Assembly (NCBI RefSeq): GCF_017875465.1
Contig: NZ_JAGGMQ010000001.1
Span: forward strand, 4,216,001 to 4,280,000
Length of the DNA: 64,000 bases
Source: Winslowiella toletana
GTDB taxonomy: Bacteria > Pseudomonadota > Gammaproteobacteria > Enterobacterales > Enterobacteriaceae
Direction: 5' to 3'
A program made the translations under genes and the position numbers. The notes under the pieces were generated by a model. The model had not been told where the DNA came from, searched no databases, and saw only the letters and a program-made list of their open reading frames with translations. Shown in pieces: positions 33,989 to 60,563 of the stretch (position 1 is the stretch's first letter; every line of letters starts with the position of its first letter).

Positions 33989-34022
33989 GAACCGGACGTG
34001 ATAGTTTCCCATCATCCGGCTC
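33989..34022 (-). ncRNA. group II intron domain V
   Basis: The 34-nt hairpin starts GAGCCGGATGA, has a GAAA tetraloop-like tip and ends TCACGTCCGGTTC on the minus strand, the catalytic AGC-containing core hairpin. The RT stop codon (TGA) lies inside it. Confidence 0.85.
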
Positions 34023-37229: not shown

Positions 37230-37314
37230 TTTCTGTTCCTCTGAAAAATGGCAGAGGAGCTCTCCCTGAGCGGAAAAGTCCTCCGCCAGGAGATGAAAAT
37301 ATTAAGTCAGGAGA

Positions 37315-39348: not shown

Positions 39349-39539
39349 TGTACTAATCCCTTTTTTAAATCTAAAAAAATCAAAACAAGTTAGCTCGGGA
39401 TCAACATTATACCTTTGCCGCCGCCGCTTCAGCAATTCATTAGCAATTATTGTGACGTTCGCAATGCCCGCTTCACATAACCGATGGTCAGATTAGACAG
39501 CGCTCAGTTCAGCGAAGATGTCAGACCGAATATAGGCCA

Positions 39540-44734: not shown

Positions 44735-45022
44735 ATGATTGGTAAACGACTCAGGCTGGCAAGAGTAAATGCAAACCTGACGCAGAGTGAACTGGGACGT
44801 CGCGCAGGTATGGATGGTGAGTCCGCAAGTACCCGGATAAGCCAGTATGAAAGGGGAACTCACGCTCCCGATTTCAAGCTTGTCTGCAAGTTCGCAGTGG
44901 TGCTGGATGTTCCGGAAGCCTGGTTTTATGCGGTTGATGAAGATCTCGCCGCGATGATACTTCAATACCATCGTTACAAAAAAAATAATCCTGGCGCCGG
45001 GATTGTGATCTTGCCTCAATAG
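44735..45022 (+). CDS. XRE/Cro-family regulator (cassette 2, second)
   Basis: A 95-aa paralogue of the preceding protein (MIGKRLRLARVNANLTQSELGRRAGMDGESASTRISQYERGTHAPDFKLVCKFAVVLDVPEAWFYAVDEDLAAMILQYHRYKK). GGAAGG precedes the ATG. The 3' end overlaps the end of the converging VirB4-like gene by 7 bp, so transcription from this cassette would run antisense into the transfer operon unless stopped. I see no terminator between them. Confidence 0.84.
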   Translation: MIGKRLRLARVNANLTQSELGRRAGMDGESASTRISQYERGTHAPDFKLVCKFAVVLDVPEAWFYAVDEDLAAMILQYHRYKKNNPGAGIVILPQ

Positions 45023-47670
45023 GACTGTTCAATCTTTTCAGCAATGATTATCGCTGCATCCAGTTCACTAATCCCCAGCGCCTGCATCAGTGCATAACGC
45101 TCGGCCTTTTCATGCTTCTCGGTCATCGCCAGTGCAAGGTACAAAGGAGGGGGCACTACCCGAAACAGGCCTTCTGTTTTAGATGACAGCACGACACCCT
45201 CGGTATATTGCCCCGGCGATTTACGTGCGGATTGCAGCAGCAACCGCTGTTCTTCAGTCAGCGCTTTAAAGCGGCAAACCTGCGCAATTTCCTCTTCCGG
45301 CATCACCAGCAGTTCCCACCACTCGATCATATTCAGCAGCTTCTTAGCTTCATCCGGAAAATCTGCCAGATTCTGGGTAGCCAGCCACAGCCAGATGCCC
45401 AGCTTGCGCCACATCTTGGAGCCTTTAGCCAGGAACTTAGCCAGCAACGGGTTAACGGTAATGATATGCGCCTCATCGGTGATATTAACGATGGCACGTG
45501 CCAGATGCTGATCCCGTTCGCCCAGATTATTAATATGGTTAATCAGTGAAATATAGGCAATGGCTAACTGCGCTTCATAGCCTTCACGCGCAAAGGTCGC
45601 CAGGTCTACCAGCGTGATATCCGCTTCCGGCCAGATTTGTCCTTCGCGGTTAAACAGCTCACCTTCAAACCCCGAACAAAACAGGTTAATGGATTCTGCC
45701 ATCTCATAAGCCCGGTTGCGGCGTGGGGCAGGGAGTGTTTCATCCTTAGCGATGACAAATAAAGCCTCGCGGACGTCCTGCGTCAGCGTCTGTCGCTGCT
45801 GCTGGTGGCAGATATTTGCCGCCGCGATAATGGCCTGCCGGATCATTGCCCGGTCAGGGCGGGTCAGCCGTGCGTCTTCCTTGTGCTCACCACCGGTAAT
45901 CATCAGCCTTGCGGTAATCTCCATTTCTCCGAGGATATCCCGCTGCTCGTCATTATCATCCTGTTCATCACTGTCAGGCAGCTCGCCGCTAACGATATTT
46001 TCTGCCACCAGTCGCCAGGCATCAGCAAACAGAGGGAGGGTAACGCCACTGCCTGGATGCAGGCTGATTCTGTTGACGCTTAGCCCATAGCGCCCGGCGT
46101 ACTGTGCGATCAGACCAAATGAGTTGCCAGCTTCGACAATAAACAGCCGTGGACGATGCAGCGCTAACAGCTGGGCGATTTTTGCATTCAGGGTGGCTGA
46201 TTTACCGGCACCGGTGGGGCCGAGCAGCAGCAGATGACCATTTTTAGCGCGGTCCAGTTTGTTTAACGGGTCGAAGCACAGTGGTGCGCCACCTCGATTA
46301 AAGTAGCTGATGCCCGGATTGCCAGTGCCGGTCTCACGCCCCCATAGCGGCGCCAGGCTGGCAAGATGTTGCACAAAGTTAAAACGGGTATACAGGGCGC
46401 GCTTATCGCGGGAGGGATCGAAGCACATCGGTAACCAGCGCAGCCAGGCGCTGAGTGGTGCCACCTCATGGTTTTCCTGCACCGGCACCAGCCCGGCGTT
46501 AAGTAATGTGCTGTTGAGTTGATACTGATTCTGGCGCAGGGTGGGTAAGTCGCTGGCGGTAAGATAAAACGCCAGAGCACTGCGATAAAGCTTATGGCCC
46601 TGATGCAGATAGTGTTTTACTTCCTGACAGTCGCGCCGGGTGTATTCAGAATCGATGTTTTCACCGATCGCACGGTTTGCCAGCAGGTTAAGATGATCCT
46701 CCAGCAAATCCTGTGGATGGATGACCACCGTCATACTCAATATTGAACCCGGCGGCAACAGATCAAACAGGGCATTGGTTCCTTCGCCGCGCGACGTTTC
46801 ACCGGTCAGTAAGCTGGGCTGAGGCACGCGACGCAGGCGGTCGACGACAACCACTTTATGCGGCTGACTATCCAGCCACCATACGCCAGCTGAACTGTCT
46901 GAACGGGGTTCACTAAGCAATAATCGCTCAGCAAAATCTGTTAATACCGTTGCGTCGGCTAAATCCAGCGTTCGGTAGACCTGCTTTTTATCTGGCAGCA
47001 AAACGGGGGCGGGGTTAAACCATTTAAGCAGCCAGCGATGAATATCCTGCTCGTTCTGGCGTAAAGCCGTGATGCCGGCGCTTTTCAATACGCTGATAAT
47101 GCGCTCACAGATATGATTGAGTGCCATCTCGGGCGGGAGTGATGACGAAGGTGCTGAAGGCAACCAGCGATAAATCACCATTCGGGTGCGTCGCCACCTT
47201 GCTCGCCAGCGGGTACGGGTGACGGTGTTATCTAAAAACAGACCCTCTGGTCGGCTAAGATTATTAAGATGGCGCTGCATCTGCGCCAGCCACTCGCGGG
47301 TGAAGTCAGTGTTTTTAGCTTCAGCGACAGCATACTCACTGAGTTGTGCCAGCCAGCTATCTGCATCATCTTCATCCTGACAGAAAAACTGTACTACCCA
47401 AGGCGCTTTATCGTCTTCATCAAAACTGTCCTGCAAAGCATCGGCTATCCGGTCTCTGACATTCTCCAGCCAGGCAACTGAGCGTCCTTCAGTTGCCACC
47501 GGTATCAGTTCATAGACGGCTCCGACTGAACGGCCATCTTCCAGCAAAAGCGCCTGGCTTTCCGGTAAGAATTCCACCCATGGCAGATGATCGACAAACG
47601 AGGGACCTCTGATCTCGTCTTGCCTGCGGAGCCGCTCGCTGTAGCGTCCGGTGCGTTCGACGTAGCGCAT
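45016..47670 (-). CDS. traC: VirB4/TraC-like conjugative transfer ATPase (TIGR03744)
   Basis: An 884-aa ATPase of the MPF_G secretion system. The Walker A motif GPTGAGKS is at 484-491, in HLLLLGPTGAGKSATLNAKIAQL; the Walker B region is NITDEAHIITVNPLLAKFLAKG, and the late motif LWLATQNLADFPDEAKK follows. It is cytoplasmic and membrane-associated and powers pilus assembly and DNA export. The start codon directly follows the stop of the TIGR03751 lipoprotein gene. The length is slightly below the 900 or more residues typical of the family. Confidence 0.92.
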   Translation of the reverse strand: MRYVERTGRYSERLRRQDEIRGPSFVDHLPWVEFLPESQALLLEDGRSVGAVYELIPVATEGRSVAWLENVRDRIADALQDSFDEDDKAPWVVQFFCQDEDDADSWLAQLSEYAVAEAKNTDFTREWLAQMQRHLNNLSRPEGLFLDNTVTRTRWRARWRRTRMVIYRWLPSAPSSSLPPEMALNHICERIISVLKSAGITALRQNEQDIHRWLLKWFNPAPVLLPDKKQVYRTLDLADATVLTDFAERLLLSEPRSDSSAGVWWLDSQPHKVVVVDRLRRVPQPSLLTGETSRGEGTNALFDLLPPGSILSMTVVIHPQDLLEDHLNLLANRAIGENIDSEYTRRDCQEVKHYLHQGHKLYRSALAFYLTASDLPTLRQNQYQLNSTLLNAGLVPVQENHEVAPLSAWLRWLPMCFDPSRDKRALYTRFNFVQHLASLAPLWGRETGTGNPGISYFNRGGAPLCFDPLNKLDRAKNGHLLLLGPTGAGKSATLNAKIAQLLALHRPRLFIVEAGNSFGLIAQYAGRYGLSVNRISLHPGSGVTLPLFADAWRLVAENIVSGELPDSDEQDDNDEQRDILGEMEITARLMITGGEHKEDARLTRPDRAMIRQAIIAAANICHQQQRQTLTQDVREALFVIAKDETLPAPRRNRAYEMAESINLFCSGFEGELFNREGQIWPEADITLVDLATFAREGYEAQLAIAYISLINHINNLGERDQHLARAIVNITDEAHIITVNPLLAKFLAKGSKMWRKLGIWLWLATQNLADFPDEAKKLLNMIEWWELLVMPEEEIAQVCRFKALTEEQRLLLQSARKSPGQYTEGVVLSSKTEGLFRVVPPPLYLALAMTEKHEKAERYALMQALGISELDAAIIIAEKIEQSY

Positions 47671-48051
47671 TCACAACGGCGCCTCGCGCTCCCCCGGTAA
47701 GGCATACTGGGTATGGGAATAGAAGGGGAATACGGTGCTGTAGCCGGGTACCGGTGTAGTGCGGTTCCCTGCCAGATGCGGGAAGATATACAGCACCATA
47801 TCCGGGTCTGGCAGACGGGGAAATAGCTGGTGGATTTCATTAGTGGCGTTACGGCTGTAGCTTCGCTGGTCGGATACTTGCGCCGGTGTGCGGCGCAACA
47901 GAGAACGGCTATCCAGCAGTAACTGCGTGCCGCCGCTTTGCTGTTGCCACAGTTTTAGCATGGTGGTGTCCTTGTCGACCGGCATCATCTGTTGTTGTGA
48001 GGTACTACAGGCGCTGAGCAACACCAGTGGGAGAATTGTTAATCTTTTCAT
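47671..48051 (-). CDS. conjugative lipoprotein, TIGR03751 family
   Basis: A 126-aa lipoprotein: signal MKRLTILPLVLLSACS with the lipobox LSAC (lipidated Cys15). The segment LFPRLPDPDMVLYIFPHLAG and the later VPGYSTVFPFYSHTQYALPGE are family hallmarks. It is a TraV-like outer-membrane component of the secretion core. Its start overlaps the upstream stop by 1 bp and its stop touches the VirB4-like start. Confidence 0.9.
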   Translation of the reverse strand: MKRLTILPLVLLSACSTSQQQMMPVDKDTTMLKLWQQQSGGTQLLLDSRSLLRRTPAQVSDQRSYSRNATNEIHQLFPRLPDPDMVLYIFPHLAGNRTTPVPGYSTVFPFYSHTQYALPGEREAPL

Positions 48052-49397
48052 CAGTCGAGTTCTCCACCTTGCTTATCTGCGGTGGCGTATTTCACCTTAC
48101 GCCCCGCTGGTGCGTAATCAATGGCCAGCGGCTGACTGATATGCACCGCAACCCGGTGGCCGGGCGGCACATAGATGGCATCAAAACTCTGCCCAAAGTG
48201 CTGCTTCATCCAGTCAGCGGTATCTTTCAGGCCGCCACCCAGTGCCTGCCCCAGCACGTACTTGCCGTTATTACCGGTTACCGCGCTGACAAGATTGCCG
48301 CCTTCAACGGCGGTGGTGTTCTGGCTGTTGGCAAAAGCCTGCGCGGCAGCGCTGGATCCTGACAGCAAAAACTGTGAGCTGAGATACTGCGCGGTATTAC
48401 TCTTCCGCGCGCCGGGAACGCAGGGAAGTCCCTGTTCATCTGACAGCCAGCCAATATCACTGGCTGAGTCGCTGCTATTTTTGCGGTCCGGAACGGTACG
48501 TATGGTGCCGTCATTAAACACAAAGGTGACCGAGTGTATCTGCCCGCGTACGCATGACAGCGTCCAGTCACCGGACGCGGTGCCGGAGATAACCGCACCG
48601 GTCACATCCGGCAATTCGATGCCATTGGCCGTCAGGTTGCTGCTGCCAATCAGAATTTTGAACGGGTAGGGATCGCTGACGCTACCGTTTACCGGAATAC
48701 GACCGATCAGGGCGGTCATCGCCACTGAACCTATCAGCGTGGCATTTTCGGGCAGGGTATAAACGGGTTTGTCGGCAGGGAGAAGATCACTGTGCCTGTT
48801 TGTTGCCGAATTAATCTCTGTGGCATGACCAAACTCAACCGGCAGATTTACGCGTGTAGTTTTATCCGCTGGCGCGTCCAGGGGGGCGACCCAGCGCACT
48901 TCATCTTCCACGCCGGAAGGCAGTTCACCGGGGGGCAGGCCAAGATCCGCGGGGATATCGCTATCATTATTTTTGCTTTTGGTCGCGGATAAACCGTGGA
49001 TCTCATCTTCAAGTTTATCCAGCAAACCCTGCTGGTGTCTGTCCAGCTCGGTTTTCAGTTCGACCTGATTATCATGCACGGTGTTATTTAAGCGTGTTTC
49101 CAGCGTCTGTTGCTGTTCACGCAGACGCCGGTTTTCTTCCTGCTGAGACTGACTGGCGCTGGCGATCTGCTGCAATGCCTGACGATATTGCTTCATCTGG
49201 GCCACCAGTGTGGCAAGCGTATCGGCAGGAGAATCTCCATCGATGCCAAGATCGTGTAACTGCTGAGGAGTCAGATCCGCGACGCTATTTGAGCTGCTAT
49301 GTGTGGCTGACTGCCGGTTGAAGTGCCGCACAACCAACAGCGTGGTCAGCAGTATCAGCAGTGGCACCCCAATTTTTAACAGTCCGCTGATACGCAT
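48051..49397 (-). CDS. conjugative core protein, TIGR03752 (TraB/VirB10-like)
   Basis: A 448-aa inner-membrane-anchored protein: a short cytoplasmic N-terminus, one membrane helix (IGVPLLILLTTLLVV), a coiled coil at about 60-140 (MKQYRQALQQIASASQSQQEENRRLREQQQTLETRL), then a periplasmic VirB10-type beta domain (LIGSVAMTALIGRIPVNG.VSDPYPFKILIG) ending in GHRVAVHISQPLAIDY. It bridges the inner and outer membranes in the pore. It overlaps its neighbours by 1 bp on both sides. Confidence 0.9.
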   Translation of the reverse strand: MRISGLLKIGVPLLILLTTLLVVRHFNRQSATHSSSNSVADLTPQQLHDLGIDGDSPADTLATLVAQMKQYRQALQQIASASQSQQEENRRLREQQQTLETRLNNTVHDNQVELKTELDRHQQGLLDKLEDEIHGLSATKSKNNDSDIPADLGLPPGELPSGVEDEVRWVAPLDAPADKTTRVNLPVEFGHATEINSATNRHSDLLPADKPVYTLPENATLIGSVAMTALIGRIPVNGSVSDPYPFKILIGSSNLTANGIELPDVTGAVISGTASGDWTLSCVRGQIHSVTFVFNDGTIRTVPDRKNSSDSASDIGWLSDEQGLPCVPGARKSNTAQYLSSQFLLSGSSAAAQAFANSQNTTAVEGGNLVSAVTGNNGKYVLGQALGGGLKDTADWMKQHFGQSFDAIYVPPGHRVAVHISQPLAIDYAPAGRKVKYATADKQGGELD

Positions 49398-50185
49398 TAT
49401 GGCTTAACCTCCCTGGTGCCGGTGGGCTCAGGAAGAATCGCCTGAGAAAGGTCACCATGCTGCGTCACCAGATAAACCACGGTGGTATCGCCGTCACTCC
49501 CCGCAGGTTCCAGCGTGTCATGCTGGAAAGCAGCAGCATAGAACTGGCCCTGCAGATCGCGTGGATCAACAACCAGACGGCACACGCTCTGGTTTTTGAG
49601 CAGGACGGCGGTAACAGTAGTTGAATCAACGCGCCATGCCATCAGCGGTGAGGTGCGCACCGGCATATTCGGCAAAAGGGTAGTAACAGTGTGCGGCAGA
49701 TGGGGCGGTATCATGCTGACGCCCGGTAAACTCTCCACCGTGCGTAGCGGAGCATAGAGGCTTTGCGCGGCATATCGCACTAATAACACCACCAGCGGTT
49801 CAGCCGAAGAGCTGGATGATGGTGGCGACGCTGTTGATCCAGCAGTAGAGGTAAATACCAGACGCAAAGGCTCCAGTGACTGCTGTTTATCACTGGCACT
49901 GATATCCAGCAGTACCAGTTCGCCGTTATTAATATCACGCAGTTGCAGGCGAGCTGACGGGAAACTTTTAGAGGCGAGCAGATACAGCATGCCGTCAGCG
50001 CTCTGAATGCGCAGCTTGCCGTCGAGCGAAGCGGGATAACCCACCTTAAACTGTCTGTCGGTCTGTATTAATCTTTCCTGACCGGTTACCAGCGCCACCG
50101 GAATCGGCACTCGCTCCCATTGCAGGATTTCGGTGGCGAATACTGGTGTGCTGATTAACAGCGCGAACAGAATGACTATTTTCAT
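49397..50185 (-). CDS. conjugative protein, TIGR03749 (TraK-like secretin partner)
   Basis: A 262-aa exported protein with signal peptide MKIVILFALLISTPVFA and the LQWERVPIPVALVTGQERLI opening of the family, beta-rich after that. It probably forms the outer ring with the TIGR03751 lipoprotein. I start at ATG 50185, inside the end of the preceding gene (4-bp overlap); the longer frame from 50257 has no signal peptide at its start. Confidence 0.88.
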   Translation of the reverse strand: MKIVILFALLISTPVFATEILQWERVPIPVALVTGQERLIQTDRQFKVGYPASLDGKLRIQSADGMLYLLASKSFPSARLQLRDINNGELVLLDISASDKQQSLEPLRLVFTSTAGSTASPPSSSSSAEPLVVLLVRYAAQSLYAPLRTVESLPGVSMIPPHLPHTVTTLLPNMPVRTSPLMAWRVDSTTVTAVLLKNQSVCRLVVDPRDLQGQFYAAAFQHDTLEPAGSDGDTTVVYLVTQHGDLSQAILPEPTGTREVKP

Positions 50186-50850
50186 AACGGCTCCAGCGGT
50201 GTATCCGCCACCAGATGCTGCGGCGCGCCCGCAAAGCAGTCTATCGCCAGTCCCCACGGATTCTTTTCCGCATCGATGGCATAGCGCACTACCTTTAACG
50301 GATAACGCACCAGAACCCGCTTCACCGGCTCGTTATGCAGATATTCATCGACGGCAACATCAAGCATTACGCGCCAGCTGTCCCGGCTGAGAACCTGAAC
50401 GCGGTTTACCGTCTTTCCCTGTGCGGTGCGAATGCTGTCGCCAAACCCGTGATCGGGAATTTCATACACTCCACGTACCCGATCACGTAACTCGCCACCC
50501 TCTTTACGCAACTGATAGTCCTTATTCAGCCATGCCAGGCAGGACGGTGTGATATAGGCCTGCAAGCGGTGAATATTGCGGGCATAGTCAGCTTCGCCAT
50601 TGGCAGGCCAGCGATTAAGCTGCTGGAACAGGTACACAGTGAAGGCATAAACGCTGGCGGGCGGGATTAGCCACCATGGCTGGGTGCTGCCGCTACGCAG
50701 ATCGGGAGGGAGGTAAACGGTGAGGTGTTGCGGAGCGGAGTACCAGCCGTATCCCATCCCGGCAATAATTATGCTCTGCACCATCAGCGCGATTTTAAGG
50801 GACTTCAGATGGGAATCGCGCTCTGCCAGCGCATGACGGAACTGGCTCAT
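50182..50850 (-). CDS. conjugative protein, TIGR03746 (TraE-like)
   Basis: A 222-aa protein with one N-terminal membrane helix (SLKIALMVQSIIIAGMGYGWYSA) and a periplasmic VirB8/TraE-like domain (DLRSGSTQPWWLIPPASVYAFTVYLFQQLNRWPANGE...). It is an inner-membrane scaffold of the pilus machine. ATGA-type overlaps with both neighbours indicate tight coupling. Confidence 0.9.
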   Translation of the reverse strand: MSQFRHALAERDSHLKSLKIALMVQSIIIAGMGYGWYSAPQHLTVYLPPDLRSGSTQPWWLIPPASVYAFTVYLFQQLNRWPANGEADYARNIHRLQAYITPSCLAWLNKDYQLRKEGGELRDRVRGVYEIPDHGFGDSIRTAQGKTVNRVQVLSRDSWRVMLDVAVDEYLHNEPVKRVLVRYPLKVVRYAIDAEKNPWGLAIDCFAGAPQHLVADTPLEPL

Positions 50851-51200
50851 TTCAGGCTCCGGCGGATAACCCAGACATCGCTGTTAATCATTAACTGCCG
50901 GTCCCCCAGCCCGTGCTGTGCCAGCCAGGCGGCGAGGGCCTGGTAGAGCCAGCTGTCGGGGCGTCCGCGTTTAAGCCGCGCCAGCCATCTTCCTCCCGAC
51001 TGAACACAGAGCGCGGCGCAGGCCAGCATAGATGTGGGAATTAGCGGCCAGTGCCCGCTAAACAGTGTCAGCAGCGTACCCGCCACTGCACCTGCCATCA
51101 GCCCAGCCGCAAGTGCCATCATCAGTTCGGTAACGGTCAGCCCGCGGAACACAGTGGGTTCGCGGTTGAGGCGGTCAGGAAGAAAGTTGATGGTAGCCAT
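50847..51200 (-). CDS. conjugative membrane protein, TIGR03750 (TraL-like)
   Basis: A 117-aa protein with two adjacent membrane helices (ELMMALAAGLMAGAVAGTLLTLF and WPLIPTSMLACAALCV) after a cytoplasmic MATINFLPDRLNREPTVFRGLT start, as in TraL-like proteins. It probably anchors the pilus base. The ATG at 51200 begins right after the upstream stop; the in-frame ATG at 51224 is less likely. Confidence 0.88.
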   Translation of the reverse strand: MATINFLPDRLNREPTVFRGLTVTELMMALAAGLMAGAVAGTLLTLFSGHWPLIPTSMLACAALCVQSGGRWLARLKRGRPDSWLYQALAAWLAQHGLGDRQLMINSDVWVIRRSLK

Positions 51201-51201
51201 A

Positions 51202-51531
51202 TCAGAGAATTTCCGTAGCCTCATTCAGTAGCCAGATGATAATCACCAGCAGCATGGTGCCGACACCTGCCATGGCACCCAGATCTTTCCACTGCTTTTT
51301 GCCGTGCTGGATCTCGGAGTAGGTGGCAACACAGTTATTTGCCACTACCAGAAAACCAACGGCGCAAATACCCAGCGCCAGCAGAATAACGATGTCATAG
51401 CCATAGTTGCGGATAGTTTCGATAGTGCCTCTGCCTTTACCCCGGGAAGGATCTTCCATATGTGGCAAATCGGCATATGCGAAGGCGGTATGAAGCCAGA
51501 TTGGGTAAGACGTGAATCGTGACAGGCGCAT
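51202..51531 (-). CDS. conjugative pilin-like protein, TIGR03745 (DUF2976)
   Basis: A 109-aa protein with a leader region ending HTAFAYADLP and two later membrane helices (YDIVILLALGICAVGFLVVANNCVA and MAGVGTMLLVIIIWLL), the shape of TraA/VirB2-type pilins. It is the probable pilus subunit. The neighbours (TIGR03758 upstream, TIGR03750 downstream) support the call. Confidence 0.87.
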   Translation of the reverse strand: MRLSRFTSYPIWLHTAFAYADLPHMEDPSRGKGRGTIETIRNYGYDIVILLALGICAVGFLVVANNCVATYSEIQHGKKQWKDLGAMAGVGTMLLVIIIWLLNEATEIL

Positions 51532-51542
51532 TTACCACCTCG

Positions 51543-51776
51543 TTAACTCAGCACCAGCAAGAAACTCACCAGCAACAGCAGCAGCGTTCTGGCCGCCATT
51601 CCACCAAGCTCACGCCAGCTCAGCCGATGGCTGGCAACCCCCCGGTAAGCACTTATCAGTGCCCAGCTACTCCATAGCAATAGCGTGGCGCAGAACAAGC
51701 TCAGCATCAGCAGATTAACGGCCTGCGGATCTGTAAGGCTTCCGGCCCTGAACGCGTTAATTTGCTCATCACTCAT
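51543..51776 (-). CDS. conjugative membrane protein, TIGR03758 (DUF3262)
   Basis: A 77-aa protein with two membrane helices (VNLLMLSLFCATLLLWSSWALIS and TLLLLLVSFLLVLS) and the family's FRAGSL opening. Its role in the pilus system is not established. It overlaps the RAQPRD gene by 8 bp and is 11 bp from the TIGR03745 gene. Confidence 0.86.
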   Translation of the reverse strand: MSDEQINAFRAGSLTDPQAVNLLMLSLFCATLLLWSSWALISAYRGVASHRLSWRELGGMAARTLLLLLVSFLLVLS

Positions 51777-52083
51777 GAGACGTGTGCTCCAGACGGAATT
51801 GGGCGTTCAGTTCTTGCGGTGTTCGTGGCTGTGCGCGTGCCGGTATCAGGTAATGCTGTATACCCTGACGGATAATGCCAATATCCCGATGTGCTTTACG
51901 ATAATCGAAGAAATATCTGGCTTCCGGTGCGCTGTCGGCTCCCTGTTCAGCGCGCTCAAGGGTGTTTTCAATATGGTCCAGCTGCCTGAGGGCAAGGGCA
52001 AGCTGTTCGGACTCAGTGCTGTCGGCGGCAGACGACAGGCAGGAGTGGCTTAGTAATACCCACATCAATATCCTGATACGCAT
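51769..52083 (-). CDS. RAQPRD-family conjugative element protein (TIGR01690)
   Basis: A 104-aa exported protein with signal peptide MRIRILMWVLLSHSCLSSAA and helical body. The family's name motif is partly visible as RAQPR in HYLIPARAQPRTPQEL. It is found only in ICE/plasmid MPF_G clusters and probably acts in the periplasm. It is the first gene of this leftward pilus run; the cargo operon lies upstream. Confidence 0.88.
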   Translation of the reverse strand: MRIRILMWVLLSHSCLSSAADSTESEQLALALRQLDHIENTLERAEQGADSAPEARYFFDYRKAHRDIGIIRQGIQHYLIPARAQPRTPQELNAQFRLEHTSHE

Positions 52084-52336
52084 AACCTTACCCCACTGAG
52101 CCCGAACAGGGGGTTAGCATGGGAGTTGATCGGGATTTTGGCAGCAGGAAATTCGTTGTCGGGGTGGGAGAATTTATTAGGGGGGGATTGAACGCCTTCA
52201 CCTGGTCCCACTTTGAGCTAAACCTGATTTGACAGTCGGCTTTGTGCCAAAAGCGGAAGCTGGAGTGCCAAAGACTCTCTAATAGTGGATGGGTAATTTT
52301 GCAGGGGTGTTTACATAGCGCTTCGCTTGCTGCCTT

Positions 52337-53950
52337 TTACTTAGGTTCTGACGAATACTTTTTCATATGCAGTTCATTGGTAATATAAGGAATATTGTCT
52401 TTTTTTTGTTTCTTACCTTCATGTCTAACCATAAAAGCAAATGAAAATATTGCTGAACGGGTGATCTGAATCAACTGACCGAAATGGTGAATAAACTCAT
52501 CCTCTTTGATAAAAAGAATATCTTTAATCAATTTATAAGACTGGTAAAGATCTTCTGCTTTATCACTTTTGTGTACTACCAAAAATTTATGTTCTAGACC
52601 ATTGCGCCACTCTTTATAAAAAGCCAATTCGCCACCTTTATTTTTATTCAGGTCAGTAGCAATGCTGTACAATGCTAAAAGTCCAGGTGACTTTATATCT
52701 TCAAACCGTTGTCTTCTGTTATCAACGTCTAACTGCCAGAAGCTTTGAAAATAGATATTTTTCTGTAACCCGCCCTTCTTTGCAGGTGGATAAACTTTGT
52801 GAAGTTCACAGATACACACCGCAATCTTATCGAGAATACCAAAGCAAAGACGAAATGCCGTTCTGATCTTCTCAATATCAATGCCTAAGATCTCGTCATT
52901 ATGTAACTCCAGAAAATGGCATTCTTCTTTTATAGCATCCGTATCCTGAGGATAAAGGTAATCAAAATAGAGATGGCGGGCGAGTGAAAACTCCGATTTA
53001 AAGCGGTTTAGCGCCATCTCCATAGGAACAATAAAATCACCGGTTACACCACCGGAGGAAGAGATGACAAGATTATCGGTGGCACTCCCCACGCAGGGGC
53101 AATAAAGACCGTGCTCGGACAGTGTCAGATGATTTACAAGGCAGAATTGCCTATATGCACTCAATGCGCCAAACTCCTGTTGTGTGAGCATGTCATCATG
53201 CTCGTCCGTTTCGCCTTCTGCTGATACACATTTTTGTATTTTATCGTTTGTTTGTGCTATACGCCCAAGATAGAATGATTCCCATTGTGGAGGAATTTTT
53301 TTGGAAACAGATGCATTAATATAACCTTTTCGTATTTCCTTCAATTGCATAATGGAGTATGAAGATGAAACAAGGTTTAGCTCAATGAGCGCGGCAGAAC
53401 GATTGACCCAAGACTGTGGTATATCTAATCCCTTGCGATTAGTGAGATCATAATATCTAAGTGCCTCACTCAGCCTAAATTGACTTCTTAACGAATTGGC
53501 CAGATTAACGGACAGTTCCGCCTGAAACTCTTCGCTCTCTTGCGAGCAGAACATAAAGGCTCGCCAGTAGATGTTTTTTAACGAAACAAGTTCTTCTATT
53601 GACTGGAATGTGTGGTCGTGAGGATTATCGACACTTATCTTATTAGACAAGGCATTAGCATAATTATAATAAAAATGGCTCTCTCCTTGTACAAGCGCTA
53701 ATGCTTCCTTATTATTATCCATCAGCTTAATACCAAGCTCTGCTGCATTTTTATGCTTGCTCATTTGCCCAATATCTACAAGACCACCAGCCACATTCCC
53801 CAGCACTATAAAATAATTATCGCCTTTGACCTTTATCTTTTCCAGTTTTTCGAGAAATACAACGGATTGCTGATATGCCAGATCAAAATCACCACAATCA
53901 ACCAGTCGGTGAATATTGAGACTTTCATCTACAAGTTCTTTTGTAATCAT
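52337..53950 (-). CDS. LA2681-like HEPN-domain protein with TPR-like N-terminus
   Basis: A 537-aa soluble protein. The first 200 residues are helical repeats of TPR type (SHFYYNYANALSNK, AELSVNLANSLRSQFRLSEALRYYDLTNR). The C-terminal region holds a HEPN ribonuclease motif R-x4-H at R449-N-G-L-E-H454 (YKEWRNGLEHKFLVVH). LA2681-type HEPN proteins are predicted RNases of defence or toxin systems. A strongly conserved-looking CPCVGSA motif lies in the middle. The gene is AT-rich and follows the STAND-nuclease gene by 12 bp, with AAGGAAAG before its ATG, so both are made from one mRNA. Function as its effector or partner is inferred. Confidence 0.75.
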   Translation of the reverse strand: MITKELVDESLNIHRLVDCGDFDLAYQQSVVFLEKLEKIKVKGDNYFIVLGNVAGGLVDIGQMSKHKNAAELGIKLMDNNKEALALVQGESHFYYNYANALSNKISVDNPHDHTFQSIEELVSLKNIYWRAFMFCSQESEEFQAELSVNLANSLRSQFRLSEALRYYDLTNRKGLDIPQSWVNRSAALIELNLVSSSYSIMQLKEIRKGYINASVSKKIPPQWESFYLGRIAQTNDKIQKCVSAEGETDEHDDMLTQQEFGALSAYRQFCLVNHLTLSEHGLYCPCVGSATDNLVISSSGGVTGDFIVPMEMALNRFKSEFSLARHLYFDYLYPQDTDAIKEECHFLELHNDEILGIDIEKIRTAFRLCFGILDKIAVCICELHKVYPPAKKGGLQKNIYFQSFWQLDVDNRRQRFEDIKSPGLLALYSIATDLNKNKGGELAFYKEWRNGLEHKFLVVHKSDKAEDLYQSYKLIKDILFIKEDEFIHHFGQLIQITRSAIFSFAFMVRHEGKKQKKDNIPYITNELHMKKYSSEPK

Positions 53951-53962
53951 GATTCACTTTCC

Positions 53963-56900
53963 TTACTTAGATGATTTTTGCGTTTCAACAGTCGAATTAG
54001 CCTCACCTGATACGTCAATTACTATCGCGGACAGGCGGCCTCGCTTAACCATTGGCACAGCTTCATTAAGAATGCCCTCCATTGTCGCGGCGTTTACTGG
54101 GGGTGGCGTGTCTTTCGCCGCGCGAGGGATAGCGTTTGGTCGAGAAGCACCAAACCAGAAGACCAGATAGATGCCGTAGCCTGCGGCATCGGGATTGGTA
54201 GTATAAAGTTGGTCCAGTTGCTCGTTAAGCGCGCTCCAAACGTCCCGGTGATAATCACGCTTTATCTCAATGGGGATCTTTATTCCTGGAAGTGAAATGA
54301 TGATATCAGCCCTTTTACCCGAAACCATGTGGCCTTCTGGCTCACAGATTATTTGTAACGGATGGAGTCGTGCTCTAAGCAGCTCCAGAAAAAAATTCCG
54401 ACAGCTCTCTTCAGGCTTAGGCACTAAAATTTGACCATTGCCATTCTCATTCCAGAACTGTTTATAAATATCGGTATTTTCATAAGTAATTCGGTTAGCG
54501 ATATCCCGCAAATGATCTAACAATAACGCATAGAGATCCATTACATTAGCTGGGGTCTGATTTTTCAGCGTATTCAACGCTTTCTTCCAGTTAGTGTGTT
54601 GAAACTGTGATTCCCGATACCGCACCTTCTGGTTGCTTTGGGCGTGTAAGAGATAATCCCGGTAACTTGTACATTCTGGCAGTAATAATAAACGTTCAAA
54701 TACTTCACCGGCATCGTATAAGGAAAAAGAAGAAACGTCATCAATCAATCTTTTGATAAAATCAGCATACTCCCAATTGTTTGCTGAGTTAGAGTCGTTA
54801 CTTGCAACGCGGTCTGCATTAGGAAAATGAGTAGCAGAGACAGTGATGATCGCTTCCAATTGTGTTAGTGATAAACGTAGCTCACTACTCCCACGACCTC
54901 TTTTCGCCTTACCTGATAGTTGACGAATAAGTGCTATCATTTCCGGCGCGGATTTTGATTCAGATAAAAATAGATCCTGACGCTGGTCTGGAGCGAATAA
55001 ATAAGTACATACCAGCCAAATTTGATAACTTGGCTTTTTAAGTTTTGAGGGTTGCGCTATCATCAACTCAGATAACTGCAACAACTTTGCATGACTCTCA
55101 GGGTGCGCTAACAACCACCCCACCAGGTTTTGTAAGTGGAGAACATCATCAGGGTGCTCTTTAGCTAGTCTCATAACTAAAGGAACGGTATAGTCGATTG
55201 GAATGCAGGTATCATTTAACAGATAGTTAAGTGCACGGATATCATGCAACTGATTATTAATGCAGAAATTGATAATGTGGTAATAGGTTTTGATGAAAAA
55301 TGCTGTTTTGTTAAGTATCACATCCCTTTTCCACGGTAATGAATAATCACTTACAACATTACTGTCTTTGGTGAAAAGTGCTAATATAACATCCAGAGCC
55401 AATAGCGTTGTTAATAAATCTTCGTTCCATTGTGTAACATCAGGATGTTTTTTAAATAACTCATCACTTCCTGCCAGTACCGCATACCACCATTTGTAAT
55501 ACTCCCTCTTCAGCAAAGCACAATTCACCTCGTCAATTGTGGGCAGATCTGAACGATTTAAAATCGCTAAAAGACCGGATATCGCATCAGTGACGTTTTC
55601 GGCACCTAATATGTCTGCACAGCGCTGCACTGGCGTCAATTTGTCATCAACATCGCTGTATTTCGAATAGTAAATATAGGAAATGTGTTTGAGCCACTCC
55701 AAATGTTGGCCCGATACAATTTCCTGACGATATAACTCGAAACTGTGCCTATCTTCATAACGCGCCGCGTTTCGTTCTTTCTCATACGCTATTTGGCTAA
55801 GATTATGTTTTACTCGCCAATCGTCAATCTCGCAGAAGATGGAAGTCTCAAATACAGTAGTCAACTTTACATTTAAATGGCAGTACGCGGAAAGAAATTC
55901 AAACGTCTCTTGGGATTGCTTGGCACATCGGTAAAGGACCGCAAATGTCAGTCGATAAATACATTCAGTTTTATGTGAACTAGCTTCAGCATGGGATAAA
56001 TAGTGGATAAAACGTGCCAGCAAAATCTCATCAGGAATAAGATAGAAGGTGCTTCCACCAAATTCATGTAAGAACAAGTAATGAGTATCATAGCGTGTAA
56101 ATGAAAGAATGGCGGCGTCTATAATATCTTCATATTTCCAGCTGCGATTTTTTATCTCCTGAACGATAGATTTCTGCACATTGTCATAACCGCGATAGTG
56201 GTGATTATGGGAGTAGCTATAGAACGTTTTTAGGCACAACCATATCTGAGATGCGCTGTAACCATTCTTCTCGCCCAGTATCTGCAATAATCCAGCTTCC
56301 AGAAAATGCACAATCTCATAATGATTTTTAGCTGAAGAATACCAGTCTTTACTGTGAGCGGTGTGGTACCGATCGAGATGCTCAAAGATAGCGAGTAGAT
56401 CAGCTGCCGGTACAATAGTATTCAGCCGCCATAACGCGCCTATCGGTAATCGCTCACTGGTTATGTTTAATGTATCAATCAGCAGTTGTGCTATATCCTG
56501 CGGTGTAAAGTAATCTTTATAAAGCAACTGAATGATATGGTTACGCAACCGGATGCTATCGTGATTTTTGTCTTTTAACTCCGCAAAAAAACGTACCGAA
56601 AATTTCTGGCCAGACGCTCCAAAATGGATTAATGCCGTTATTGCTTCCTCTTTTTCCGCATACGATGAATCCTCCGATTTGGCAATTTTAATTAAGTCAT
56701 CACTCAGTGCGACTATCGGTGTTGCCACCGATAAGGATTCCAAAACGATCATCCGCAGAGAAAATGACGAATGAGGATCGCGGACTATCTGTCGCAATAG
56801 AGCTTCCATTTCTACCGTCGCGAAGCCATTCAGATATGAATTGAGACCGTGATTTCTAAACCAGGGATCACGTTCTGATAGTTTTGACAGCGCCACCAGT

Positions 56901-58033
56901 AGATTTTGTTTTTCCGCTGTCGGTAATGAAGCTGCATCGCCATAGGTCAGAACGCCGTAAGGATCGGCTTCAATGAATACCTGGGCGTATTGCGGTAAAA
57001 AGACCGCTAGCCATGCGTGTAAACCTCTCAATTCTGAAGACGGATAACCCTCAAATCCCAGCATACTTCTCAAACGTCCCATGGGTAGCCCTTTGTCAAC
57101 GATCCCGGCTAACCATTTTGCCGCTAAATACTCAGCAATTGTCCTGTGGCTGTACTCAACAGTCTCAAGCTCATCTCCGGCAGAAAAAACCCGCCTCGAT
57201 AACGCCGCTCTAATTATTTCATGTGAGAAGAACGAGATGGTTCTGTAACTGGGGTATTCTGGTCGGATATCGTTCAGAAGCAGAGAAACCCCGGAAACAT
57301 TACTCAATATGCGCAACGCGCAAATTGATCCTGCAGGATACTCTAACTCGTCGCAGGTATAAATTCCTGAAGTTAGCCGCGTATGTTCTTGGCTATGTTC
57401 AGTTAAAAGGAACTGTGTCGCAGAGTGGAAAAGTTCAGATCTTGTACGGGGCCAGTTTCCTTCTTTAACGGCTTCAGCCAGCATTATTAGATTTTGTGGG
57501 TTGTAAAGAAATTCGCTGGCGTCATGTTTTTCTGCTTCAGCCAGAAACGCTTCGGGGTGTTCTACACCATTCGCTTGTAGAATTGCAGTTTGCTCTTCTT
57601 TTGAGAGCGGCTGCAAATGTAAAACAACATAGCCTCCCGTCTGCTCAAAATAGGGTAAAAATGCTGACAAGTCTGATTCGCCTAACCAATCCTGAGAGCG
57701 ACAAGAAATTCTGACATTTTGTGGCGTTTGGGAAAAAAGCCTACGGACGATGTCATCTACAACGTCACTACTGTTACTGGCACTCCTCTTCTCATCTAAT
57801 GCATCGATGAATAACGTTTTCTGATTATCAATAGGTACGCCACTTAAGAAGTGACGTACTGTCAGATATTTTGCCTCTTGCAATGCCGCAAACTGTTTGA
57901 AGAGGTGCGTTTTTCCAGCACCAGGATCACCAAGCAGAACAATGTTTGGAAAGTGAGAATAATCACTAAATACCACCGTTTGGGTACCTTTATCCTGTTG
58001 AGGATAGATTTGCCTGACTTGCCTGGTTAGCAT
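53963..58033 (-). CDS. large STAND/NACHT-like P-loop protein with C-terminal PD-(D/E)xK nuclease
   Basis: A 1,356-aa protein. The Walker A motif GDPGAGKT is at 35-42, Walker B LFIDALDE at about 74-81 and the sensor-like RISCRSQDW at 108-116, all typical of NACHT/STAND ATPases. Residues about 300-1,180 are a long alpha-helical, probably HEAT/TPR-like sensor region. The C-terminus has a restriction-like nuclease core, D1243 in GKRADIIIS and E1256-x-K1258 in IPIEIKRD, with Q1272 in NEQLDQLYT as a possible further motif. An in-frame stop precedes the ATG, so no N-terminal effector is missing. Known Avs proteins mostly carry the nuclease at the N-terminus. AT-rich; a defence role is inferred. Confidence 0.78.
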   Translation of the reverse strand: MLTRQVRQIYPQQDKGTQTVVFSDYSHFPNIVLLGDPGAGKTHLFKQFAALQEAKYLTVRHFLSGVPIDNQKTLFIDALDEKRSASNSSDVVDDIVRRLFSQTPQNVRISCRSQDWLGESDLSAFLPYFEQTGGYVVLHLQPLSKEEQTAILQANGVEHPEAFLAEAEKHDASEFLYNPQNLIMLAEAVKEGNWPRTRSELFHSATQFLLTEHSQEHTRLTSGIYTCDELEYPAGSICALRILSNVSGVSLLLNDIRPEYPSYRTISFFSHEIIRAALSRRVFSAGDELETVEYSHRTIAEYLAAKWLAGIVDKGLPMGRLRSMLGFEGYPSSELRGLHAWLAVFLPQYAQVFIEADPYGVLTYGDAASLPTAEKQNLLVALSKLSERDPWFRNHGLNSYLNGFATVEMEALLRQIVRDPHSSFSLRMIVLESLSVATPIVALSDDLIKIAKSEDSSYAEKEEAITALIHFGASGQKFSVRFFAELKDKNHDSIRLRNHIIQLLYKDYFTPQDIAQLLIDTLNITSERLPIGALWRLNTIVPAADLLAIFEHLDRYHTAHSKDWYSSAKNHYEIVHFLEAGLLQILGEKNGYSASQIWLCLKTFYSYSHNHHYRGYDNVQKSIVQEIKNRSWKYEDIIDAAILSFTRYDTHYLFLHEFGGSTFYLIPDEILLARFIHYLSHAEASSHKTECIYRLTFAVLYRCAKQSQETFEFLSAYCHLNVKLTTVFETSIFCEIDDWRVKHNLSQIAYEKERNAARYEDRHSFELYRQEIVSGQHLEWLKHISYIYYSKYSDVDDKLTPVQRCADILGAENVTDAISGLLAILNRSDLPTIDEVNCALLKREYYKWWYAVLAGSDELFKKHPDVTQWNEDLLTTLLALDVILALFTKDSNVVSDYSLPWKRDVILNKTAFFIKTYYHIINFCINNQLHDIRALNYLLNDTCIPIDYTVPLVMRLAKEHPDDVLHLQNLVGWLLAHPESHAKLLQLSELMIAQPSKLKKPSYQIWLVCTYLFAPDQRQDLFLSESKSAPEMIALIRQLSGKAKRGRGSSELRLSLTQLEAIITVSATHFPNADRVASNDSNSANNWEYADFIKRLIDDVSSFSLYDAGEVFERLLLLPECTSYRDYLLHAQSNQKVRYRESQFQHTNWKKALNTLKNQTPANVMDLYALLLDHLRDIANRITYENTDIYKQFWNENGNGQILVPKPEESCRNFFLELLRARLHPLQIICEPEGHMVSGKRADIIISLPGIKIPIEIKRDYHRDVWSALNEQLDQLYTTNPDAAGYGIYLVFWFGASRPNAIPRAAKDTPPPVNAATMEGILNEAVPMVKRGRLSAIVIDVSGEANSTVETQKSSK

Positions 58034-58374
58034 TCTATAGGTTCCTGAGTATCTATTTTTGTTTTACCAAATCTGTATGGTAGGTTTTACTCCAAATTTA
58101 TCATAGACTTTCAGCCGATACAGTAAACCATCTAACCCACCATGATTGCTATGATGTCACGTTTTGGTTTACATGACAGACTCATAGTGAGCAGAACTGG
58201 CTGCTAGGACGTCGAGTGCTGATACCATTCAAACATTGATGGAATCCGGGATGACGCTGGCTCCGTTGCATGGGCTGCATGTCGCTCGAAGGTGACCATA
58301 ACTCATACCTGACTGTTCATAGCCGCAATCATCCTGTCCGTCATGGAATAGAGGGTCAGGAAAACAGAAAACGC
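58034..58374. promoter_or_regulatory. upstream region of the STAND-HEPN operon
   Basis: About 340 bp between the cargo operon and the DUF4400 gene. It contains an inverted repeat TACCAAATCTGTATGGTA near 58064-58082 and should hold the leftward cargo promoter. No gene is seen. Confidence 0.5.
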
Positions 58375-59049
58375 TCATATATATTTTTTAAACGAGCCAA
58401 TGATTAACGATATGCTGATGCCACTGGCTATCGCCATCAGTAGCAGCCATCCATTGGTGACGTTCCAGGGGGATACCAGATAAATCAGCCCACAGGTAAA
58501 ACTTACAGTGCTGAATGAATAGCGTATCCGGTGATGAATAAACCCGGACTCATATCCGGCGCCTAAGCGCCTCAAATCGCGCTGAACCAGCCCTTCGACA
58601 AAACCCACGACTACGCACAGCAGAAAGAGTGGCAGCGCCAGATACAGCCTTAGCACGCGTATCACCACCGAGTTAATGCTGCAAATCAGGGTTTCAGAAA
58701 CGCTGTTTAAAGCGGCGTAAAGCGGGTAGGGAAGCAGTCGTTCCATAATCAGAGTGATGTAATGAATACCCAGCGTCAGCCCCTGGGTTACTTTTAACTC
58801 AATTGAGTAAATAACAGGCCGGATCCTTATATCTTCAGCTAACCACCGCCATTCATTCCTGAACACTTCACAACTATGAGCAGAACCCTGCTGCGGCCAG
58901 AGAAATACCAGTCCGAGCAATTCAATAACCATGCGCAACAGCAGAGCCGCAATAAGCATTGTCAGCACCCGGCTTACCCATGACAAAAATATGCCAAATG
59001 GCCCTCTGGGTTTTGCAGGCTGAGAAGCTACGGGTTGTTGTTCCACCAT
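58375..59049 (-). CDS. ICE membrane protein, TIGR03747/DUF4400 family
   Basis: A 224-aa protein with four membrane helices, including GIFLSWVSRVLTMLIAALLLRMVIELLGLVFLW at the start and FVEGLVQRDLRRLGAGYESGFIHHRIR between later helices, which is the family signature. It always follows traD in this ICE class and overlaps its end by 22 bp here. Role unknown, probably with the coupling protein. Confidence 0.87.
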   Translation of the reverse strand: MVEQQPVASQPAKPRGPFGIFLSWVSRVLTMLIAALLLRMVIELLGLVFLWPQQGSAHSCEVFRNEWRWLAEDIRIRPVIYSIELKVTQGLTLGIHYITLIMERLLPYPLYAALNSVSETLICSINSVVIRVLRLYLALPLFLLCVVVGFVEGLVQRDLRRLGAGYESGFIHHRIRYSFSTVSFTCGLIYLVSPWNVTNGWLLLMAIASGISISLIIGSFKKYI

Positions 59050-60563
59050 CGTTCTTCACTTCGGTAGTTTTTCTGCATCGCCTCGGCAATCTGCTGGATT
59101 GAGGCGGGTAAGGGAACACGTCGATCATGAACGGGCAATGGCAGGCGAATCTTCCACAGCTGTCCGCCTTCCAGCAGTGCAAACGCCTGCCCTTTAGGAA
59201 GCTGCACCAGCGCTGAGCTATCCAGCATGGGTACGCGGGTAAGATTGATTTGCTCGCTGGTATGGCTGGTAAAATCACTTTGCCCGGCTGGTACTGAAGC
59301 GTCGGTCACGCCAGAAGTGACGCTGCTGCTGCGGATCTCCACCTCTGGTAACTGGCCGGTTAACAACTCCGCCGTCGCGGTTTCACGTACCCGTAGCATA
59401 ATCAGATTATTGAAATTGCCGACAACCTGTCCGGCTTTGGCGACGCTGCCGATCCCGGCCTGAATATCCGACAAGGTCTGGGTGTAGGCCGTAACCTGAA
59501 TGCCGGTGCCGCCACCTTTATTAATAAGCGGAATAAATTCTTCTCCCATCAGTTCGCTGAATTCATCGCAGTGCAAATTAATCGGCACTCGTTCCGAAGA
59601 ATTCCCCGGTAAACCATCATTGATACCGAACTTATAAATATGTCCGGCGACACTGACCAGGTCGGCAAACATGGAGTTACCCACTGCGCCGGATACTTCG
59701 CTATCAGAGAGGGCATCAAACGCTACATAGGCAATGCCGCGCTTGCGGATCAGCTGAGGCCAGTCGAAAATTGGGCGAGGATCGTTAAGATCGCTGTAAT
59801 CCGGCGCCAGCAACTGTGCAATGCTGCCGGTGGTGAGTTTTTCCAGTAACGGTAGCAGTGAGGCAACGATTTTATCAAAGTAGGTGCGGTCATAACGAAC
59901 CGCAGAGCGAAGACCGTCAAGGATGGGGTCATAGATGCCGGACTGGTTAATATATTGCTCTAAAGCCACGACATGGCGATCGCGCCCCAGCAGATTACGC
60001 GGCGTGTTTTTGTCGTTAATATTGCTGGCCAGCTGAGCAACCACCTCCCAGGCTTTACGATCGATTGCCGTCAGGGCATGACGGGCATAATCGATAAATA
60101 ACCCGTCGATATTCACTACGTGGCGGGCGATTAGCTGGTAGTCCGGCCTTTTACCTAACGCCACCAGAGCGCGGGTAATAATATTCACAAAGCGCCAGGC
60201 AAACTCGCGAAACGCCGCACTGTTGCCTTCATTGCTGAGCTGTCCTGCAATACGTGATGCCACTTCTGAGATGCGACCAAAGCGACCGATGGCATTGTAC
60301 CGCGCGCTCAGTTCCGGCCAGCCGAGGTGAAACAGGTAAAACTCATTCTCGCGTCCGGCGCGCACCGCCTCGGACCAGGCTCGCTTAAGCAAATCGGCAT
60401 CGCCTTTTGGATCGAAGATAATAACTACGTCGCCGCGCCGGATATCCTGAGTGATCAGCAGTTCAGCCAGCCGGGTTTTGCCAACCCGGGTGGTGCCCAT
60501 CACCAGGGTATGGCCGACACGGTCTGCCAGCGGCATAGTGACATTCTGTTCCCGGCGTTCCAC
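59028..60563 (-). CDS. traD: TraD conjugative coupling protein, ATPase part (second frame of a split gene)
   Basis: A 511-aa frame from a GTG at 60563, but homology continues upstream of it in the same frame to about 60641. It carries the Walker A GTTRVGKT, DPKGDADLL after it, and the CDEFSELMG Walker B region. The full family protein needs the N-terminal membrane part encoded at 60641-61027 in the other frame. If a -1 shift occurs at the slippery site the fused product is 666 aa, within the usual range. TraD links the relaxase-DNA complex to the pore. Without the fusion this part would lack its membrane anchor. Confidence 0.85.
   Translation of the reverse strand: MERREQNVTMPLADRVGHTLVMGTTRVGKTRLAELLITQDIRRGDVVIIFDPKGDADLLKRAWSEAVRAGRENEFYLFHLGWPELSARYNAIGRFGRISEVASRIAGQLSNEGNSAAFREFAWRFVNIITRALVALGKRPDYQLIARHVVNIDGLFIDYARHALTAIDRKAWEVVAQLASNINDKNTPRNLLGRDRHVVALEQYINQSGIYDPILDGLRSAVRYDRTYFDKIVASLLPLLEKLTTGSIAQLLAPDYSDLNDPRPIFDWPQLIRKRGIAYVAFDALSDSEVSGAVGNSMFADLVSVAGHIYKFGINDGLPGNSSERVPINLHCDEFSELMGEEFIPLINKGGGTGIQVTAYTQTLSDIQAGIGSVAKAGQVVGNFNNLIMLRVRETATAELLTGQLPEVEIRSSSVTSGVTDASVPAGQSDFTSHTSEQINLTRVPMLDSSALVQLPKGQAFALLEGGQLWKIRLPLPVHDRRVPLPASIQQIAEAMQKNYRSEERWWNNNP

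Follow-up and report, generated by a model that had tools for sequence, protein, structure and literature searches.

The 64,000-nucleotide stretch of the Winslowiella toletana genome analyzed here (contig NZ_JAGGMQ010000001.1, positions 4,216,001 to 4,280,000; hereafter the window) carries, within an integrative and conjugative element (ICE) of the PFGI-1 class, two adjacent genes that encode an EruA-family NTPase with a predicted nuclease domain and a TPR protein with an LA2681-type HEPN domain. We propose, with a probability of roughly 0.6, that EruA is a self-sufficient STAND nuclease sensor, that the HEPN protein is an appended, co-translated, and autonomous RNase that forms a second layer of defense, and that the pair is mobile as a unit, which here occupies a cargo slot of the ICE. 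This reading is supported by the occurrence of EruA where no HEPN gene is seen (the HEPN gene lies beside 8 of the 43 EruA rows in our tree), and the independence of the HEPN protein is supported by the LA2681 loci, 15 of 21 of which are not directly behind a gene of a known defense family (14 if a helicase is counted as such).

Organization of the gene pair

The two genes are separated in the window by a stop-to-start junction of 12 nt, TAAGGAAAGTGAATCATG. The Shine-Dalgarno-like sequence of the HEPN gene, AAGGA, overlaps the EruA stop codon, and both proteins are therefore probably made from one message, with translation of the second likely coupled to that of the first. The GC content is 42.8% for the EruA gene and 38.6% for the HEPN gene, versus 55.0% in the transfer genes at positions 45016 to 52083. 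An initial annotation of this DNA had described the pair as AT-rich ICE cargo consisting of two open reading frames (ORFs) 12 nt apart; the composition agrees with this, the Walker, nuclease, and HEPN motifs that it named were all verified in the sequence, and its domain assignments (NACHT-type NTPase, C-terminal PD-(D/E)xK, TPR with LA2681-HEPN) were upheld. The features are collected in Table 1.

Table 1. Features of the gene pair and of its surroundings; positions are those of the window unless another locus is named
Feature	Position	Strand	Basis or content
EruA-family NACHT/STAND NTPase with predicted C-terminal PD-(D/E)xK nuclease, 1356 aa	53963..58033	(-)	NCBIfam match, invariant catalytic residues
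TPR + LA2681-type HEPN protein, 537 aa	52337..53950	(-)	Pfam PF18733, structure model, invariant R449/H454
EruA stop TAA, overlapping Shine-Dalgarno-like AAGGA, HEPN start ATG	53948..53965	(-)	TAAGGAAAGTGAATCATG
Walker A GDPGAGKT, residues 35-42 (K41)	57908..57931	(-)	K41 invariant in 21/21 rows
Walker B LFIDALDE, residues 74-81 (D77, D80, E81)	57791..57814	(-)	D77, D80, E81 invariant in 21/21 rows
Predicted C-terminal PD-(D/E)xK nuclease domain, approximately residues 1163-1356 (E1233, D1243, E1256, K1258)	53966..54547	(-)	AlphaFold2 model, VIA, conservation
ICE transfer genes upstream of the cargo	58375..60563	(-)	TIGR03747-like membrane protein, TraD coupling protein
ICE transfer genes downstream of the cargo	45016..52083	(-)	RAQPRD, TIGR03750, PFL_4703, TIGR03749, TIGR03752, TIGR03751, TraC ATPase (PFL_4706)
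Slot, window	52083-58375		EruA-HEPN
Slot, L130	11250-12541		other ICE
Slot, L131/L132	7730-9459		other ICEs

The EruA protein

The first protein matches the NCBIfam model NF058535 (antiphage_EruA) with 1230.1 bits against a cut-off of 1000, the match extending over residues 7 to 1342 and over the whole model (positions 1 to 1318 of 1318). By this profile match it is assigned to an antiphage family that is already named in NCBIfam. The 14 best-listed relatives are 92 to 96% identical to the window protein, and the named ones are from Serratia, Klebsiella, Leclercia, and Pectobacterium. Many of the homologues (P0001 to P0120) bear a precomputed assignment to Pfam PF28130.1, which is probably a newer Pfam model for the EruA family and did not come up when the window protein was scanned locally with Pfam.

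The four Walker residues and the four nuclease residues given in Table 1 are invariant in all 21 rows of the EruA alignment, and the nuclease core (E1233, D1243, and E1256-x-K1258) is invariant in all 27 rows of a wider alignment, including those in which no HEPN gene is seen. The Walker A and B motifs and the E-D-ExK nuclease residues are likewise conserved in the six members examined from the best-scoring NF058535 group. In the AlphaFold2 model of residues 1031 to 1356 (mean predicted local distance difference test score, pLDDT = 85.1), the core takes the order helix, three strands, helix, strand, and structure comparison of the nuclease domain with VIA gave matches to OkrAI, Can2, BamHI, and BglII. 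The modeled core fold and the D...ExK residues place the C-terminal domain in the PD-(D/E)xK nuclease superfamily, and the nuclease fold on which the initial annotation depended is present in the model. A PDB sequence search with EruA returned no convincing relative (best E = 0.076).

Only 34 residues precede Walker A, whereas the nuclease is at the opposite end of the chain; i.e., the effector is not N-terminal to the NTPase. A longer N-terminus that might hide an effector is excluded because an in-frame stop codon is located 11 codons upstream of the ATG. The C-terminal position of the nuclease, which had been pointed out as unlike that of most Avs proteins, is therefore not an artifact of an overlooked upstream extension. 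The region between the two domains is probably a long helical-repeat array and is a putative infection sensor.

The HEPN protein

The second protein matches Pfam PF18733 over residues 308 to 511 (E = 1.6e-36, 126 bits versus a gathering score of 27). R449-N-G-L-E-H454 is the sole R-x4-H motif in its 537 residues; R449, N450, E453, and H454 are invariant in 20 of 20 rows of the HEPN protein, and the arginine and histidine are also invariant in 14 of 14 diverse rows. Because they are invariant across relatives, the Walker, nuclease, and HEPN motifs are not chance occurrences. The structure model (pLDDT = 82.0) shows a TPR-like superhelix at approximately residues 1 to 247, and nearly all matches of a PDB sequence search with this protein were TPR proteins. 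We regard it as a probable RNase that acts autonomously and uses a TPR domain of its own for sensing or docking.

H280, C284, and C286 (H-x3-C-x-C) are invariant in 20 of 20 close relatives and are absent from the invariant and nearly invariant columns of the diverse set; they possibly form a metal site between the TPR and HEPN parts.

Distribution of EruA and evolution of the pairing

EruA is a broad family: of 7998 candidates scored, 915 matched at E up to 1e-3. Its loci come from several proteobacterial groups and from metagenome-assembled genomes (MAGs) of Dadabacteria, Acidobacteriaceae (one), and Bathyarchaeota (one). It exceeded the cut-off in 8 of 295 genomes of an order-level sample, the window's own included; 14 control genomes gave two weak matches and none at the cut-off. 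In a family-level sample, EruA was found at E up to 1e-60 in 3 of 392 genomes, again with the window's own, and the HEPN gene was present in all three. Across a set of 36 EruA loci, an LA2681-HEPN gene adjoins EruA in 3 (Rahnella and two Citrobacter) and does not in 33, among which L033, L041, L048, L052, L054, and L059 show less than 1 kb of downstream sequence. At six loci of the group with the highest NF058535 scores, no HEPN gene was found in approximately 20 kb around each.

In the 43-row EruA tree, the eight HEPN-linked rows (the window, L005, L008, L029, L030, L031, L102, and L103) form a single branch with full support; the tree was made by a quick method with SH-aLRT support only and includes one very long branch (L018). 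The HEPN trait requires one change on this tree, compared with a mean of 7.5 after shuffling, and 0 of 500 shuffles was as low. No HEPN gene was seen beside EruA in the remaining 35 rows, for which downstream sequence is nil in L012, less than 1 kb in L033 and L059, and approximately 1.4 kb in L018 and L038. Since it is present in 8 of 8 rows of one enterobacterial branch and unseen with the other 35, the HEPN gene is a clade-bound addition and does not define the EruA architecture, and a HEPN protein as a constant part of the EruA system is ruled out. The co-occurrence that the initial annotation had expected in other genomes thus stands within this branch and was not seen elsewhere in the tree.

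The 12-nt spacing is kept in the window, L005, L029, L030, L102, L031, and, by annotation, L008, and the two genes overlap by 4 nt in L103. Between the two HEPN-bearing sub-branches, EruA is approximately 66% and the HEPN protein approximately 77% identical, and dS (synonymous divergence) is approximately 1.5 or more, so that ratios of nonsynonymous to synonymous divergence (dN/dS) between the sub-branches are rough. These ratios (NG86) were calculated for 36 pairs from nine paired loci, with EruA represented in L065 by a fragment of a disrupted gene and in L030 by a copy cut by a contig end. They were 0.06 to 0.13 in 35 of the 36 pairs for the HEPN gene, with 0.23 in the remaining one, and 0.11 to 0.38 in 34 of the 36 for EruA, dS being saturated in the other two. 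The values indicate purifying selection on both genes, and the faster evolution of EruA would fit a sensor role.

A second branch of 12 rows, in which Comamonadaceae predominate alongside two Dadabacteria MAGs, further betaproteobacterial rows, and one row without assignment, has a different neighbor: in all 12 (L049, L050, L051, L053, L055 to L060, L062, and L063; Pfam run on 4 of the 12), a gene for an AAA_14-DUF4143 ATPase lies just upstream and ends within approximately 200 nt of the start of the EruA frame. This gene was not found at the other 34 EruA loci searched. The ATPase is a second EruA partner, independent of HEPN, and EruA thus resembles a core whose partners differ between branches, HEPN downstream and the ATPase upstream. 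At a further locus, in a Hyphomicrobium MAG (L039, 8210-9847), EruA is immediately preceded by a gene that encodes Schlafen AlbA_2 and HATPase_c_4 domains.

Intact and broken pairs in E. coli and in viral collections

The pair was matched in 30 of 5426 E. coli genomes. Both ORFs are apparently whole by annotation in 14 of the 30 (H125, H126, H129, H130, H132, H134 to H136, and H54 to H59), an IS3 element being located between the two genes in H125; L005, L008, L106, and L133 were inspected directly, and the remaining intact pairs were taken from annotation listings. In seven others (H127, H137, and H150, inspected directly, and H131, H151, H152, and H153, from the listing), the HEPN gene is kept and EruA is interrupted, truncated, or mostly missing; at two of the inspected loci, the adjoining HEPN accession is identical to that of the whole pair in L005. 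Among the rest, H133 has a split HEPN gene and a whole EruA, six (H138 to H143; L006 and L007 inspected directly) have EruA cut short and no HEPN gene in the match, the match in H154 spans the first 1373 bases of the query only, and H128 has an IS1 within the matched stretch. The paired locus in E. coli is found at a tRNA-Thr island and, in another island, near tRNA-Asn genes; taken with the ICE slot of the window, these locations suggest that the pair moves as a unit.

In viral collections, the HEPN gene was found in one IMG/VR contig, with a broken EruA beside it, and EruA in that contig and one other; phage records yielded no HEPN gene and one partial EruA match. In the former contig (L065, 1028-6277), EruA is split into two pieces that lie apart, and the ORF for HEPN is whole.

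Proposed mechanism and alternative explanations

By analogy with STAND proteins, the NTPase switch at the extreme N-terminus of EruA would act through sensing and assembly, with the helical-repeat region detecting an infection signal, and the C-terminal nuclease of activated EruA would probably cut DNA. In one enterobacterial lineage, the TPR-LA2681-HEPN gene would have been appended 12 nt downstream of EruA, and its product would cut RNA as a second, abortive layer once the EruA layer has been triggered or is failing. Abortive infection by a DNA-cutting and an RNA-cutting effector is plausible, both activities being predicted.

Several points weigh against this reading. The activities of both proteins are predictions from sequence motifs and models. 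The founding publication of the EruA antiphage family was not found in the literature searched, in which HyoA and EruB were not sought singly. Partial alignments of the window EruA with the best-scoring members of NF058535 give approximately 24 to 39% identity, so that function is transferred to it over a long distance. Foldseek alone gave no match for the nuclease domain at E up to 0.001, and the 50 VIA matches listed for the HEPN-protein model are to TPR or other helical-repeat proteins, mainly over residues 1 to 244, with the HEPN half barely covered, so that the lack of HEPN folds in that list carries no weight. Moreover, the two genes have stayed strictly together while diverging to 66% (EruA) and 77% (HEPN) identity, which could reflect dependence of one protein on the other and not two autonomous layers.

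The last point leads to a model of one interdependent machine, in which EruA senses infection and licenses the HEPN RNase through the TPR domain, the HEPN protein is the main killer, and the EruA nuclease is secondary. TPR domains usually bind partner proteins, the HEPN protein is more conserved than EruA, and the pair is present in every row of its branch at nearly fixed spacing, all of which would suit such a machine; the invariance of the EruA nuclease residues also where HEPN is unseen, together with the 7 of 30 E. coli genomes that retain HEPN beside a broken or mostly missing EruA, makes it unlikely in our estimation. The opposite extreme, i.e., two unrelated single-gene defenses that share a promoter and an island and hitch-hike without any functional link, would agree with the tendency of defense genes to cluster and with the occurrence of each protein type elsewhere without the other. 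We consider it distinctly improbable, as the pairing is confined to a single branch of the tree and has been kept down to 66% EruA identity, along with a nearly unchanged junction and the stop-overlapping Shine-Dalgarno-like sequence.

HEPN proteins are frequently toxins, and these genes are on a mobile element; the pair might accordingly be viewed as a toxin-antitoxin module that stabilizes the ICE, with HEPN as the toxin and EruA as the antitoxin. The retention of an annotated HEPN gene in the seven E. coli genomes without a whole EruA argues against EruA as an antitoxin, as do the NTPase-nuclease composition of EruA and the 35 of 43 tree rows with which HEPN is unseen. We therefore hold this model to be very improbable, and the persistence of HEPN beside damaged or largely lost EruA genes led to its rejection as the main explanation.

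If a self-sufficient EruA with an appended HEPN layer is the correct description, the mere addition of a gene has given a complete single-gene STAND defense a second effector with a different chemistry, and a separate EruA branch has acquired a partner of its own. The natural pairs of loci with and without the added gene would then make the acquisition of backup layers by defense systems directly testable.

Relation to known defense systems

The initial annotation had left the pair unmatched to any named system. For the first protein this no longer applies, since it passes the NF058535 cut-off, and half of the supposedly unmatched pair is thus already named; for the HEPN protein it stands, as no NCBIfam or PADLOC model matched. 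The PADLOC scan assigned no system to either protein, apart from a 16.8-bit LmuA stretch at EruA residues 1215 to 1270, and a PHROGs scan gave nothing useful. The window protein has the full-length match, the N-terminal NTPase motifs, and the C-terminal E-D-ExK nuclease of antiphage_EruA, and the pair differs from the six best-scoring loci in its extra HEPN gene. The related model NF058534 (antiphage_HyoA) matches EruA residues 132 to 772 with 159.5 bits, far under its cut-off of 1200 bits.

In most Avs proteins, the effector is N-terminal. EruA shares the STAND switch and a nuclease effector with Avs and bNACHT proteins, but its predicted effector is C-terminal instead. PMC12169576 describes an N-terminal effector and a C-terminal sensor for bNACHT proteins, and the window EruA would be a clear case of a NACHT protein with the reverse order. 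The R-x4-H motif and the TPR fusion of the HEPN protein are those of the LA2681 HEPN family (PF18733), which a 2013 survey describes as "Fused to TPR, and in operon with TPR" (PMC3710099). That survey, the only paper on LA2681 in the literature searched, does not mention, in the portion available, an operon with an EruA NTPase such as that of the window. Some of the systems validated with DefensePredictor (named DS-n) have NACHT, PD-(D/E)xK, or HEPN domains (PMC13092281) and share these domain types with the window pair, a comparison by description in the article body. In adherent-invasive E. coli, the name EruA also denotes a SlyA-family regulator that is unrelated to the antiphage family (PMC12839154). 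No account of EruA paired with HEPN came up in the literature searched, supplements not covered. EruA is thus known as a named antiphage family, and its pairing with HEPN appears to be the new part.

LA2681-HEPN genes elsewhere

Relatives of the HEPN protein are rare in wide genome samples, each of which includes the window's genome: 3 of 295, 15 of 398 (mostly repeat-only), 1 of 369 at E 1e-10, and 3 of 244. We examined 21 distinct LA2681 loci, in which the window stands for all enterobacterial EruA-HEPN pairs; the weak repeat-only matches of the 398-genome sample, near-identical plasmid records (three Alteromonas mediterranea, three Rhodococcus, two Vibrio, and two Klebsiella), and one partial Rhizobium match are not counted among them. 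Most plasmid loci are LA2681 by record annotation, PF18733 was run on 7 of the 21, L129 was identified by tblastn alone, and the gene calls of five loci (L119 to L123) are longest-ORF picks.

With "directly behind" taken as at most 150 nt on the same strand (one case overlapping), the HEPN gene follows a defense-family gene in 6 of the 21 loci, or 7 when a DEAD/DEAH helicase is counted. The upstream genes are EruA in the window (12 nt), PDC-M54A in Gemmobacter (122 nt), qatD in Sulfitobacter (101 nt, by annotation), a type IIG restriction-modification gene in L119 (11-nt overlap), AbiEii in Roseovarius (118 nt, by annotation), a 1332-aa protein with a weakly LmuA-like N-terminus in Agrobacterium (41 nt; E = 1.2e-6, residues 10 to 230), and the helicase gene, also in Agrobacterium (91 nt). 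The other 14 loci, e.g., those of Rhodococcus, Tistrella, and Klebsiella, are not directly behind such a gene, the upstream neighbor of L127 being outside the scan. Because no background rate stands behind the raw counts, the pattern is a lead and not a result.

A wider proposal may tentatively be built on this lead, although we doubt it more than we believe it: TPR-LA2681-HEPN proteins would be portable RNases bolted 3' of unrelated, complete defense operons (EruA, Qat, type IIG restriction-modification, AbiE, PDC-M54, and an LmuA-like ATPase), each guarding the upstream system and halting translation when that system is activated or is blocked by a phage, with EruA as a core that recruits HEPN downstream or the AAA_14-DUF4143 ATPase upstream according to its branch.

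The ICE in the window

The TIGR03747-like protein encoded upstream of the pair scores 128.7 bits, slightly below the cut-off of 138.5. A PFGI-1-class MobH relaxase gene (32010-33623) and an integrase gene are located elsewhere in the window. In three E. coli ICEs, other genes fill the slot bounded by DUF4400 and RAQPRD, i.e., a TIR-domain gene with DUF4231 in one and DUF1848 with a hypothetical gene in two, and the interval from the DUF4400 or TIGR03747-like gene to RAQPRD looks like a variable cargo slot.

An ORF resembling a group II intron reverse transcriptase/maturase (34012-35907, reverse strand; 290 bits versus a cut-off of 300) lies beside the MobH gene. Three ORFs of 394 to 493 aa at 35871-41021, also on the reverse strand, have no NCBIfam match at E 1e-5, and the GC content there falls to 38%; these are perhaps further ICE cargo. 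The segment 28590-30359 contains tRNA-Gly, tRNA-Cys, and tRNA-Leu(taa) genes and then the integrase gene, at 29106; the ICE probably has its left end and its site of integration here.

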